Below, piece after piece: positions 46,097 to 52,999 of a stretch of 64,000 bases of DNA. The stretch comes from Halorubrum saccharovorum DSM 1137 (GTDB lineage Archaea > Halobacteriota > Halobacteria > Halobacteriales > Haloferacaceae): positions 66,980-130,979 of the forward strand of contig NZ_AOJE01000021.1 in the NCBI RefSeq assembly GCF_000337915.1. The letters run 5' to 3'. How positions within the stretch are numbered: position 1 is the stretch's first letter; the number at the start of each line of letters is the position of its first letter. A program made the position numbers and the translations under genes. The notes below the pieces were generated by a model. That model was not told the DNA's origin. It made no database searches and saw only the letters and a list, made by a program, of their open reading frames with translations.

Positions 46097-48370
<2,274 letters not shown>

Positions 48371-49546
48371 CTACGCGACCTGATCGCCCGCGGCGAACAC
48401 CGCGTCCGGCTCCCGCCACGCCGTCACGTCCTCGGTGGGGTCGGCGTCGAGGACGACGAGGTCGGCGCGGTACCCCCCTTCGATCCGCCCCACGTCGTCG
48501 AGCCCGAGCAGGTCGGCGGCGTTGACGGTGGCCGCCTCCAGCGCGCCCTCGGGCGAGAGTCCGTAGTCGACCATGTACTCCAGCTCCCGCGGGATGTCCC
48601 CGAAGAAGTTGAAGGGGGTGCCGGCGTCCGTGCCCATCGCGATCGGCACGTCGGCGTCCAGCGCGCGGTCCCACGCGTCGTCGAAGCGGTCGGCGGCGTC
48701 TTCGGCCTTCGCGACGGCGTCCTCGGGGATCCCCGCCTCGACGCCGTTATCGGCGATCCCGCGGAGCGCGCTTGCGGTCGGCACCCAGTACGTGCCGCGC
48801 TCGGCCATCATCTCGGCGGCCTCGCGGTCCATGAAGGTGCCGTGCTCGATGCTCGTGATCCCGGCCTCGACCGCGTTCTTGATCCCCCGCTCGCCGTGGG
48901 CGTGGGCCGCGGTGGGGGTGTCGGTCGGCGCGGCGGCGTCGGTGAACGCCGCGAGCTCGTCGGGCGTCAGCTCCGGGGCACCCGTCACCGCGCCCTCGGT
49001 GAGGACGCCGCCGGTCGCCATACACTTGAGCACGTCCGCGCCGGCCTTCAGCTGCTCGCGGGCCGCCTTCCGGACCTCTGCCGGGCCGTCGGCCTCGCGG
49101 CCGAACCAGTTGCCGTGGCCGCCGGTCATGATCACGTTGCGGCCGCACGCGAGGACGCGCGGGCCGTCGATCTCGCCGGCGGCGACCGCCTCGCCCGCGT
49201 CGAGCGCGAGCGTCCCGCGGCTCCCCAGGTCGCGGACCGTCGTGACCCCCGCTTCGAGGGCGTCTCGGAGGTTGCCGGCCGCCCGGTAGCTCGCGGTGTA
49301 GTCGCTGTCGGAGACCGCGGTGGCCACGTCTGGCCGCCCGTCCATCATGACGTGGACGTGCGCGTCGATCAGCCCCGGCGCGACCACCGAACCGCTCGCG
49401 TCGGTCTCGGAATCGACCGCGTCCTCGCCGCCGATCTCGGCGACCGCGTCCGGCCCGACCGCGATGATTTCGCCGTCCGCGACCGCCACGTCGGCCTCGC
49501 GGGTCCCGTCGACGTCGACCACTCGCCCGCCTCGAATCACGTGCAT
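48371..49546 (-). CDS. Amidohydrolase (imidazolonepropionase/prolidase-like)
   Basis: Metal-dependent hydrolase of 391 residues. Metal and catalytic residues are all visible: HVHV after APGLIDA, the carboxylatable Lys in DVLKCMATGG, His in AAHAHGERG, His in SIEHGTFM and Asp in MGTDAGTPFNF. The motif set resembles Xaa-Pro dipeptidase/prolidase-like amidohydrolases. The true substrate is unknown. It is divergent from the YegP-repeat protein. Confidence 0.88.
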   Translation of the reverse strand: MHVIRGGRVVDVDGTREADVAVADGEIIAVGPDAVAEIGGEDAVDSETDASGSVVAPGLIDAHVHVMMDGRPDVATAVSDSDYTASYRAAGNLRDALEAGVTTVRDLGSRGTLALDAGEAVAAGEIDGPRVLACGRNVIMTGGHGNWFGREADGPAEVRKAAREQLKAGADVLKCMATGGVLTEGAVTGAPELTPDELAAFTDAAAPTDTPTAAHAHGERGIKNAVEAGITSIEHGTFMDREAAEMMAERGTYWVPTASALRGIADNGVEAGIPEDAVAKAEDAADRFDDAWDRALDADVPIAMGTDAGTPFNFFGDIPRELEYMVDYGLSPEGALEAATVNAADLLGLDDVGRIEGGYRADLVVLDADPTEDVTAWREPDAVFAAGDQVA

Positions 49547-49691
49547 GTTCTCACGAGGGGGCGTTCGGCTCGTAAACGATCGGGTCGCGGTAGTCCGTCG
49601 GAGATCGGCTTTCGAGCCGCGGTGGTTCGCTAGACGTTAGTTCGTGTCACACACCCACACCTATAACCGGCCGGCCGGCGACTTCCGGGTC

Positions 49692-51428
49692 ATGGCAAGT
49701 GACAAGCAATCGGGCTCGCCCGGCGGGCTGTACGCTCGACGCATCGGGGCCCCGACGACCGACGACGAAGTGAACGGGTTCTGGCTGTTCGGGTTCGGCG
49801 TGCTGCTCGGGCTATCCGGGGTCGTCCTCTTCCTCCTCACCGAACAGGCGACGACCACCCGCGGGATCGGGTACGCGCTCGCGGCGCTGGCGCCGCCGTT
49901 CATCATGCTCGGCGCGGTGATCCGCTTCCCGCTCCGTCGAGCGGGGACGTCTCTCGGGTATCTCGGGACGGCGGTCAGCGTCCTCGGCGTGGTCTGGTTC
50001 GTGAACATCTTCCCGGACGGCTGGTCCACCGCCACCGGCGAGCCGGCCGTGATCGCCGCGTACGGGCTCGGGCTCGGGCTCATCGGGCTCGCGGGGACGG
50101 TCGTCCCGCTGCTGTCCGATCCGGTGTACGAAGACTACGAACGGATGCAGACCGAAACGGCGGCCGCGACGGCCGCGCGCGACGAGACGAGCGCGGAACT
50201 GGCGGCGACCCGCGAGGAGCTGGACGAGACGAGCGCGGAGCTGGCGGCGGCCCGCGAGGAGCTGGCGGCGGCCCGATCGGACCGAGAGGCGACCGAATCG
50301 GACCTCGCGGCGAGGAGCGAGGAGCTGGCGGAGACCGAATCGGCGCTCGAAGCGGCCCGCGCTGAGACCGCGGCGCTGCGCGAGAGCAAGGCCCGGTTCG
50401 AGCTGTTCGAGGACGCGGGCGGGAAGCCGCGCTGGCGGCTCCGCCACCGCAACGGCAACGTCATCGCGACCGCCGGGCAGGGGTACAGCAGCCGCGGCAA
50501 GGCCCAGAAGGGGCTCCACAGCGTCAGGCGGAACGCGCTCGGCGCGGGGATCCTCCGGATCGAGACCCCGGTCGCGGAGGCCGAGGCGATCGCCGACGAC
50601 GACGGGCCCGAGCCCGCGGACGCCGCGGACCCGGACGTGGCCGTCCCGAGCGAGGACGAGGATATCGCGAGCAAGGCGACCTTCGAACTGTTCGAGGACG
50701 CCGGCGCCGAGTGGCGCTGGCGGCTCCGCCACGACAACGGGAACGTCATCTCGGACTCCGGCGAGGGGTACGCCTCCAAGTCGAACGCGAAGCGCGCGCT
50801 CGGCCGAGTCCGCGAACACGTCGCCGCCGCGGACTACCTCCGGGTCGACCCGGCCGCCTTCGAGATGTTCCGCGACGCGGGCGGCGAGTGGCGCTGGCGG
50901 CTCATCCACGAGAACGGCAACGTGCTCGCCGACTCCGGAGAGGGGTACTCCTCCCGGTCGAAGGCCCGGCAGGGGCTCGACAGCGTGCGGTCGAACGCCG
51001 CCGACGCGGCCCTCGAAGCGGTCGGTGAAGAGGGCGGCGAAGGGGGCGAGGGCGGGGGCTCGAAGGCGACCTTCGAGCTGTTCGAGGACGCCGCCGGGGA
51101 GCACCGCTGGCGGCTCCGCCACCGCAACGGCAACATCGTCGCCGACTCCGGAGAGGGGTACGCCTCCGAGTCGGGCGCGCGGGACGCGATCGAGCGCGTC
51201 CGCGAGTACGGGCCCGACGCCGACGTGTTGGAGGTCGGCAACGCCGCCTTCGAGATCTACGAGGACGCGGGCGGCAAGTGGCGCTGGCGGCTCCGCCACC
51301 GCAACGGCAACATCGTCGCCGACTCCGGGCAGGGATACGCCTCCCGGTCGAACGCGGTCGAAGGGATCACGACGGTGAAGCGGAACGCCCCCGGCGCGGA
51401 GGCGGAGACGGGCGACGCGGGCGAGTAA
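49692..51428 (+). CDS. Membrane protein with coiled coil and five DUF1508 (YegP) repeats
   Basis: ~578 residues in three parts. Residues ~1-150 hold four hydrophobic segments. Residues ~160-230 are an Ala/Glu/Arg coiled coil made of EELAAAREELAAARS-type heptads. Five DUF1508 modules begin near residues 234, 329, 389, 459 and 519; each reads FELFEDAGG, RWRLRHRNGN, then SGEGYASRS. Linkers between modules 1-2 and 3-4 are acidic. YegP modules usually occur once or twice in small soluble proteins. ATG 49692 (MASDKQSGSPGG) is chosen over the upstream ATG. The function of DUF1508 is not firmly known. Confidence 0.85.
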   Translation: MASDKQSGSPGGLYARRIGAPTTDDEVNGFWLFGFGVLLGLSGVVLFLLTEQATTTRGIGYALAALAPPFIMLGAVIRFPLRRAGTSLGYLGTAVSVLGVVWFVNIFPDGWSTATGEPAVIAAYGLGLGLIGLAGTVVPLLSDPVYEDYERMQTETAAATAARDETSAELAATREELDETSAELAAAREELAAARSDREATESDLAARSEELAETESALEAARAETAALRESKARFELFEDAGGKPRWRLRHRNGNVIATAGQGYSSRGKAQKGLHSVRRNALGAGILRIETPVAEAEAIADDDGPEPADAADPDVAVPSEDEDIASKATFELFEDAGAEWRWRLRHDNGNVISDSGEGYASKSNAKRALGRVREHVAAADYLRVDPAAFEMFRDAGGEWRWRLIHENGNVLADSGEGYSSRSKARQGLDSVRSNAADAALEAVGEEGGEGGEGGGSKATFELFEDAAGEHRWRLRHRNGNIVADSGEGYASESGARDAIERVREYGPDADVLEVGNAAFEIYEDAGGKWRWRLRHRNGNIVADSGQGYASRSNAVEGITTVKRNAPGAEAETGDAGE

Positions 51429-51472: not shown

Positions 51473-51760
51473 TCAGGCCGCCGCCAAGAGCTTCAGCCGC
51501 AGCTCCCGCTCGTCGACCTCGTACTTGAACGCCGGGTGGCCGTCGACGAGCACGTAGGGGACGCGCTCGCCGTACTCCTCGGCCAGTTCGGGGTCCTCGT
51601 CGACATCGACCATGTCGAGGTCGATCGCCACGTCGAGGCCGTCGGCGACCTCCTCGATGGTCTCGCGGGCGACCTCGCACAGCGAACAGTTCTCGCGGGT
51701 GTACACCGTGACGGGGACGGTCTCCGCGGCGTCCGTTTCCGAGGCGTCCGTCTCGCTCAT
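51473..51760 (-). CDS. Glutaredoxin/thioredoxin-fold redox protein
   Basis: 95 residues. After an acidic N-terminus comes a thioredoxin fold with VTVYTRENCSLC, whose CxxC (CSLC) is the active site, a YGERVPYVLVDG cis-Pro loop, and a final helix. It belongs to the glutaredoxin-like DUF836 group. It is divergent in reading from the YegP gene (both end at the same gap) and follows repeat copy C. Confidence 0.88.
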   Translation of the reverse strand: MSETDASETDAAETVPVTVYTRENCSLCEVARETIEEVADGLDVAIDLDMVDVDEDPELAEEYGERVPYVLVDGHPAFKYEVDERELRLKLLAAA

Positions 51761-52084: not shown

Positions 52085-52999
52085 TTACGCGATCTTGTCG
52101 TACTGCTCGGAGAGCTTGTCGGCGGCCTCGTCGAGCAGCTCCGACTCGTACTCGTCGAGGTCCCACTCGACGACCTCCTCGACGCCGTTCGATCCGAGCT
52201 TCGCCGGCACGCCGAGCGCGGTGTCCTCGTAGCCGAACTCGCCGTCGAGCACGACGGAGCAGGGGAGCACCTCGCCGGTGTCGTTCAGGATGGCCTCGAC
52301 CGTGTGCGCGACGCCGGTGGCGGGCCCCCACTGCGTGGCGCCCTTGCGGCTGATCACGTCCATCGCCGACTCCTGGAGGTCCTCCAGGATCTCCTCCTTC
52401 TCGCCGGCGTCGAAGCTCGGGTCGCGACCGTTCACGCGCACCTTCGAGAAGACGGGGGCCTGCGCGTCGCCGTGCTCGCCGAGGATCGTCGCCTCGACGT
52501 TCTTGACGGGGGCGTCGAAGCGCTCGGAGAGGACGTACCGGAAGCGCGCGGAGTCGAGCCGCCCGCCGAAGCCGACCACCTTGTGGCGGTCGCGGTCGCC
52601 GGCCTCGTACAGGTGACGGTTGAGCAGGTCCACCGGGTTCGAGGTGGTGACGGTGACGAAGTCGTCGTTGTGCTCGGCGATAGAGGAACCGATGTCCTCC
52701 ATGATCGGCGCGTTGTCGCCCGCGAGATCGATCCGGGTCTGTCCCTCCTTGCGCGGGATGCCGGCCGTGATGACGACCACGTCCGAGCCGGCGGTGTCCT
52801 CGTACTCTCCCTGCCGGACGGTCGTGTTCGAGTCGTAGGCGACGCCGTGGTTCGCGTCGGCGGCCTGTCCGATGGTCGTCTCGCGCTGGTCCGGGATGTC
52901 GACGAAGACGAGCTCGTCGACCACGTCCCGCAGCGCGAGGTTGTACCCGGCCGCGGCACCGACAGTCCCCGCCGCACCGATGACGCTCACTTTTGTCAT
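52085..52999 (-). CDS. mdh: Malate dehydrogenase (lactate dehydrogenase-like)
   Basis: Oxidises malate to oxaloacetate with NAD. 304 residues. The Rossmann motif is [13 protein letters not shown] (8-20). The substrate Arg region is [20 protein letters not shown] and the catalytic His in [11 protein letters not shown] match haloarchaeal tetrameric malate dehydrogenases. Surface residues are markedly acidic. ATG 52999. It is 85 bp downstream of its probable promoter. Confidence 0.93.

Follow-up and report, generated by a model that had tools for sequence, protein, structure and literature searches.

In the window, by which we mean the whole 64,000-nucleotide stretch of Halorubrum saccharovorum DNA that was analyzed, we found a gene encoding a protein with a DUF7139 membrane anchor, a long helical stalk, and five YegP modules (Table 1). 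The TATAA box-like sequence ahead of it may, judging by its position, be a promoter and would then fit a leaderless transcript.

Table 1. Features of the anchored YegP array and its upstream region (positions in the window)
Feature	Position	Strand	Basis or remark
TATAA box-like sequence	49662..49666	+	First base 30 bases before ATG; read from sequence; candidate promoter
Whole array gene, 578 aa	49692..51428	+	ATG 49692, stop 51426-51428; aligned relatives (MASD...) share this start
DUF7139 membrane anchor, residues 12-150	49725..50141	+	Four predicted membrane helices
Long helix/coiled-coil stalk, residues 144-230	50121..50381	+	AlphaFold2 helix; length comparison in relatives
YegP module 1, residues 234-286	50391..50549	+	Module HMM; unpaired by spacing; net charge +9 here
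Acidic linker 1-2, residues 287-328	50550..50675	+	43 residues by HMM edges
YegP module 2, residues 329-381	50676..50834	+	Module HMM; first of pair 2-3
Linker 2-3, 7 residues	50835..50855	+	Module HMM edges
YegP module 3, residues 389-440	50856..51011	+	Module HMM; second of pair 2-3
Gly/Glu-rich linker 3-4	51012..51065	+	19 residues by HMM edges; natural gene-split point in relatives
YegP module 4, residues 459-511	51066..51224	+	Module HMM; first of pair 4-5
Linker 4-5, 7 residues	51225..51245	+	Module HMM edges
YegP module 5, residues 519-570	51246..51401	+	Module HMM; second of pair 4-5

Pfam results showed five stretches of DUF1508 (PF07411; 4.7e-88, 289 bits against a cut-off of 22) and DUF7139 (PF23600) at residues 13 to 137 (1.5e-21, 77 bits against a cut-off of 30), and the NCBIfam model HVO_2922 (NF041908) matched the protein five times (1.8e-122, 399 bits against a cut-off of 90). 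Sequence matches in the PDB were all UPF0339/YegP proteins (6q2z, 2k7i, 3bid, 2k8e, and 2k49). The module HMM gave the same five starts (residues ~234, 329, 389, 459, and 519) as an earlier reading of the sequence alone, hereafter the sequence-only reading. The motifs RWRLRHRNGN and SGEGYAS, which that reading took to be kept in the repeats, are not identical in every copy (module 1 reads ATAGQGYSS), and the copies within one protein have a mean mutual identity of 51 to 62%. Both modules and anchor are known Pfam families, and the DUF1508 label is already in the records; a five-module protein of Haloarcula marina (WP_254280679.1), for example, is annotated only as a DUF1508 domain-containing protein. 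YegP/DUF1508 has solved structures and no agreed function, and the searches found no functionally characterized domain in the protein. A search of titles and abstract beginnings on the topics DUF1508, YegP, UPF0339, HVO_2922, DUF7139, and haloarchaea found no paper on anchored YegP arrays, the search for DUF7139 returned none, and the counted, anchored array with its 1 + 2 + 2 grammar was not found in print.

Neighboring genes were compared by similarity in 20 regions of 15 to 17 kb, the window, and three Halorubrum/Halobellus loci. Within this set, sharing of neighbors did not reach beyond clusters of 3 to 5 loci, and many of those shared were antisense shadow ORFs; the window's own neighbors recur as a run only in Halorubrum and Halobellus loci. 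By eye, we take these neighbors, all on the minus strand, to encode a DNA ligase (46097 to 48247), an amidohydrolase (48371 to 49546), a glutaredoxin-like protein (51473 to 51760), and a malate dehydrogenase (52085 to 52999). The presumed amidohydrolase and glutaredoxin-like genes flank the empty site in Halorubrum genomes without the array. The contig of the array also encodes a soluble two-module protein (L159, C21:5519-5914), and the similar L183 has an Amphi-Trp domain ahead of its two modules. Matches in PADLOC-DB were coil-driven only (E of 0.0065 and 0.0092), those in PHROGs were to proteins of unknown function or tape-measure coils only, phage records gave one weak matching place, and of 33 plasmid records none covered 80% of the query.

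Membrane anchor and stalk

The four-helix membrane anchor of the sequence-only reading was borne out by the DUF7139 match above its cut-off, by four predicted hydrophobic segments (residues 32-50, 59-77, 86-104, and 120-138), and by AlphaFold2 helices at residues 24-49, 55-78, 83-106, and 118-141. Because loops rich in Lys and Arg lie on the cytoplasmic side by the positive-inside rule, and in 49 of 61 relatives no loop has more of these residues than that between membrane segments 2 and 3, the array is predicted to lie in the cytoplasm; the same pattern suggests that both ends of the protein would be cytoplasmic. The AlphaFold2 model of the full-length protein is poor (pLDDT 61.5, pTM 0.22). 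A fold search with this model matched the anchor to cytochrome b561 (4o7g, Z 8.3, rmsd 4.0, 10% identity), which we take as a common helix-bundle arrangement; the remaining non-YegP rows of that search were weak.

We built a tree of the anchor from the 65 of 131 rows kept after removal of near-copies, in which 22 forks are open. The short arrays fall into one group of 40 rows (SH-aLRT 88) made up of 36 short arrays and four rows in which no same-frame module scored; at least three of these four are frame-broken, cut, or module-less relatives. Proteins of the DUF7139-DUF7140 type form another group (support 100). One of them is encoded in the same genome (L158); it has the same kind of DUF7139 anchor as the array but carries a short DUF7140 tail and no YegP modules. 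Judged by the anchor tree, Halobacteria probably settled on five modules early.

The best-predicted long stretch of the full-length model is the single long helix that forms the stalk. In 20 Halorubrum-type relatives, the window's protein included, the length from residue 145 to module 1 takes the values 60, 67, 74, 81, 88, 95, and 116, equal modulo 7 in 20 of 20, a pattern that a coiled coil changing by whole heptads would give. A Fourier test for 3.5-residue periodicity, counting A/L/I/V/M/F, was unsupportive, with 1408 of 2000 shuffles as high, probably because the ubiquitous Ala was counted as hydrophobic. The heptad coiled coil proposed earlier fits the length steps in close relatives but was not borne out by the periodicity test. 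Slippage in 21-base DNA repeats could yield such steps without selection, yet would still imply heptads. In other families the stalk of a few arrays is short or absent (lengths 13 and 27; L178-L180), so the coil is not essential.

Number and spacing of the modules

We counted modules in haloarchaeal homologs, as the sequence-only reading had proposed. Among 96 distinct anchored arrays, which are best matches plus loci picked as long or reduced and so no random sample for proportions, 77 have five modules, eight have 11 to 13, five have three, four have one, one has two, and one has four. When the loci of the long type were rescanned with a specific model, all 11 of them had exactly 13 modules. 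Odd counts made up 90 of the 96 (77 + 4 + 5 + 4) in the first scan and 94 after the rescan moved four arrays from 11 or 12 to 13; the two even-numbered arrays are L114 (two modules) and L180 (four modules). Relatives only 47 to 55% identical over the full length still carry five. By comparison, ORFs without a membrane segment have one module in 30 cases, two in 12, and four in one, in line with the earlier statement that soluble YegP proteins mostly have one or two; two further ORFs have 5 modules and another two have 13, and some of these four lie at loci cut off before the anchor. We offer this as a testable rule, namely odd numbers when anchored and pairs or homodimers when soluble.

The long DUF7139 arrays (e.g., L146, L151, and L153) resemble the five-module array in being anchored with an odd, fixed module number, but their first module does not follow a long stalk, their linkers are of about 9 residues, and with few exceptions their modules are acidic or near-neutral. 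In the whole 13-module DUF1508 family (L146-L155, L157, and L238) most linkers have 9 residues. A Natrialba magadii protein (WP_004216175.1) has 13 modules on a seemingly reduced anchor, and L166 has three modules joined by 7-residue linkers.

Linker and charge statistics were taken from 61 distinct five-module arrays, other counts being excluded by construction. Linkers 1-2 (19 to 47 residues, SD 7.9) and 3-4 (-1 to 33, SD 9.0) vary widely, and linkers 2-3 (7 to 11, SD 1.3) and 4-5 (7 to 8, SD 0.1) hardly at all; the SDs over the 40 distinct linker vectors are 8.0, 1.4, 9.4, and 0.2 for linkers 1-2, 2-3, 3-4, and 4-5. Natural gene splits fall at the two variable linkers. The gene is divided between modules 3 and 4 in L181 and L182 (one genus) and in L190 (Halorubrum), where an ORF ends after module 3 and an ATG stands just before module 4; L036 is split at the same place with an ATGA overlap, and L165 is split with an ATGA overlap between modules 1 and 2. 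The split arrays in G013, G048, G076, G153, and G228 are ready-made two-part constructs.

An AlphaFold2 model of modules 4 and 5 from 41 sequences (41 of the 44 listed segments) reached a pLDDT of 82.1 and a pTM of 0.50; the paired fold was modeled for 4-5 alone and may not be specific to that pair. The model aligns with the two-module units of E. coli YegP/UPF0339 (2k8e; Z 15.8, 110 residues, 1.6 Å, TMq 0.83) and SO_3888 (2k49; Z 15.4, 1.7 Å) over 109 to 110 residues. Both of these are single-unit proteins, which, unlike the array, have no anchor or stalk. Because of the linkers, the gene splits, and the YegP-like model of the 4-5 pair, we read the array as 1 + (2,3) + (4,5). Modules found their best match at the same position in 1113 of 2275 distant comparisons, so module positions are only partly fixed. 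The many reverse-transcriptase rows for the pair model (about 61 residues, 7% identity) were set aside as a common beta-alpha arrangement, and the weak rows of a BFVD search included phage DUF1508 proteins without a known function.

Arrangement, possible role, and loss of the array

We favor, with a probability of roughly 0.55, a dimeric tether or scaffold on the cytoplasmic face of the membrane, in which the coiled coil makes a homodimer and module 1 is cross-paired. The closest solved relative, HVO_2922 of Haloferax volcanii (6q2z, the best PDB match at 3.3e-18), is of the same module family, but it is a near-neutral protein of 60 aa with one module and no anchor. Since this single-module protein is a symmetrical dimer, as a passage in PMC7217052 has it, the lone module 1 would have to find a partner, for which module 1' of another chain is the simplest choice. 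In such an arrangement, the four-helix DUF7139 anchor would send the stalk into the cytoplasm, two chains would zip along it, and the lone basic module 1 would pair with that of the partner chain as HVO_2922 does with itself. Modules 2-3, and likewise 4-5, would form a complete YegP-type domain inside a single chain, giving each dimer five YegP domains held at a fixed distance from the membrane. Of these, the module 1 pair may be the conserved, specialized site and the other four outer binding or spacing units, with the protein acting as a tether or scaffold for a ligand. The anchored multivalent scaffold of the sequence-only reading survives in this form as the most economical reading, its anchor and five modules being confirmed, but its five equal modules are too simple a picture for a 1 + 2 + 2 array with a distinct module 1.

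Of the five modules, module 1 is the best conserved, and charge and selection set it apart. It is the most basic module in 61 of 61 arrays (mean net charge +6.2), which are related by descent and hence not 61 independent events; module 4 is the most acidic on average (mean -5.0). Pooled dN/dS over 20 Halorubrum-type sequences, with L114 omitted as it carries a deletion, is 0.08 for module 1, 0.22 for module 5, 0.30 for modules 2 and 3, 0.31 for the anchor, 0.42 for linker 1-2, 0.46 for module 4, and 0.52 for the stalk. With counted modules, a heptad-quantized stalk, and one module marked by both charge and selection, module 1 is the place to seek the ligand.

The main specific rival is polyanion binding by module 1: the protein would be a membrane-tethered holder of DNA or RNA, gripped by the basic module 1, with the outer modules spacing or assembling the array. 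So basic a module in an acidic proteome, when the HVO_2922 segment has a charge of 0, speaks for such a holder, as does the strongest purifying selection on this module, and the alternating Arg of RWRLRHR would, as read from the sequence, lie on one strand face. HVO_2922 is moreover listed among the genes induced by perchlorate, alongside recombination genes, in a part of PMC12175516; by analogy with this single-module relative, the listing is also the sole hint that the array might act in salt or oxidative stress. However, no nucleic-acid-binding family scored above cut-off in the Pfam and NCBIfam searches, structural resemblance to a tandem AP2 DNA-binding protein (Z 4.0) and to dsRBDs (Z 3.4) is weak, and the neighbors give no hint, and we regard a nucleic acid holder as doubtful. 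Also unlikely is a combined reading, in which anchored arrays are counted odd YegP rods of 5 or 13 modules, the odd module closing across the two-chain coil and its basic, conserved site tethering DNA or RNA to the cytoplasmic membrane face.

The five modules might instead be independent, identical binding units that work without pairing, by plain multivalent avidity. Each of them is under purifying selection (dN/dS 0.08 to 0.46), as such units would be, but the linker pattern, the split points, the oddness of the count, and a pair fold like that of YegP all argue for paired modules, which makes this reading quite improbable.

We investigated the distribution of the array gene in 52 Halorubrum genomes. 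It is intact in 35, broken, split, or reduced in 10, and missing in 7. Of the intact genes, 30 were read as loci, and five (G222, G224, G204, G233, and G196) were called by match together with L193, L101, L116, L107, and L192, among which L101, L116, and L107 were assigned to genomes by ORF length and module layout. Among the 10, in G213 the anchor is interrupted by a frame break, the gene of G228 is split 3|2, G219 retains two modules, G198 and G004 retain one each, and G178, G234, G044, G120, and G225 hold remnants. The gene was not found in G052, G110, G207, G211, G217, G220, and G229; in G052, G110, G211, and G220 the neighbors are present at the syntenic site, whereas in G207, G217, and G229 a neighbor was also not found and the absence may reflect incompleteness. 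Decay of the repeat copies in related genomes, which the sequence-only reading had said would count against it, is thus partly seen, next to a majority of intact arrays. With 17 of the 52 genomes lacking the gene or having it split or broken, it is dispensable. Repeats seem to have been lost by recombination between copies, because module hybrids (1/5 and 2/5) can be seen in L186, L160, and L194, with split match positions as a further sign.

These losses bear on the view that the protein is an accessory repeat protein whose copy number drifts by recombination, five having no specific role. Internal deletions or remnants in Halorubrum (L160, L186, L194, L161, L188, L187, L189, and L162) and clean absence at the syntenic site (L206, L210, L211, and L213) are what drift would leave. 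Five modules are kept, however, between proteins only about 50% identical and across several families, pooled dN/dS is below 0.55 everywhere, and intermediates are rare, so we find drift equally improbable. Purifying selection and a module number that stays at five from family to family both speak for function in the intact form.

Docking of a contractile injection system (CIS) or similar machine at the membrane is very improbable as a role: the pair model does match chain AD of the Anabaena baseplate 7b5h (108 residues, Z 8.2, rmsd 3.1, 16% identity; Foldseek prob 1.00, TMq 0.62, E 0.02), a chain that need not be Cis12, but this likeness is one of shared fold only, the haloarchaeal CIS anchor candidate described in a passage of PMC11566945 has six membrane helices against four here, and no CIS gene was recognized beside the array, where neighbors were compared by similarity and not annotated. 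A passage of PMC8894136 describes residues 610 to 1,100 of Cis12 as an extension absent from AFP, and an extra Cis12 domain as reaching the thylakoid membrane.

Two side observations concern other proteins. The baseplate protein Alg12/Algo12 gave weak sequence matches (E 0.06), and YegP-like domains may be present in injection-system baseplates. YegP modules are also fused to GT2 glycosyltransferases in L195, L196, L197, and L198 (Halorubrum G200, G228, G222, and G234) and in L156 (G076). These enzymes, which we take to be hyaluronan/cellulose-synthase-like, resemble the array in placing YegP modules on a mostly membrane-associated family, but they lack DUF7139 and have four modules, not five; four are present in 4 of the 5 fusions, and the fifth (L198) has a damaged first module.
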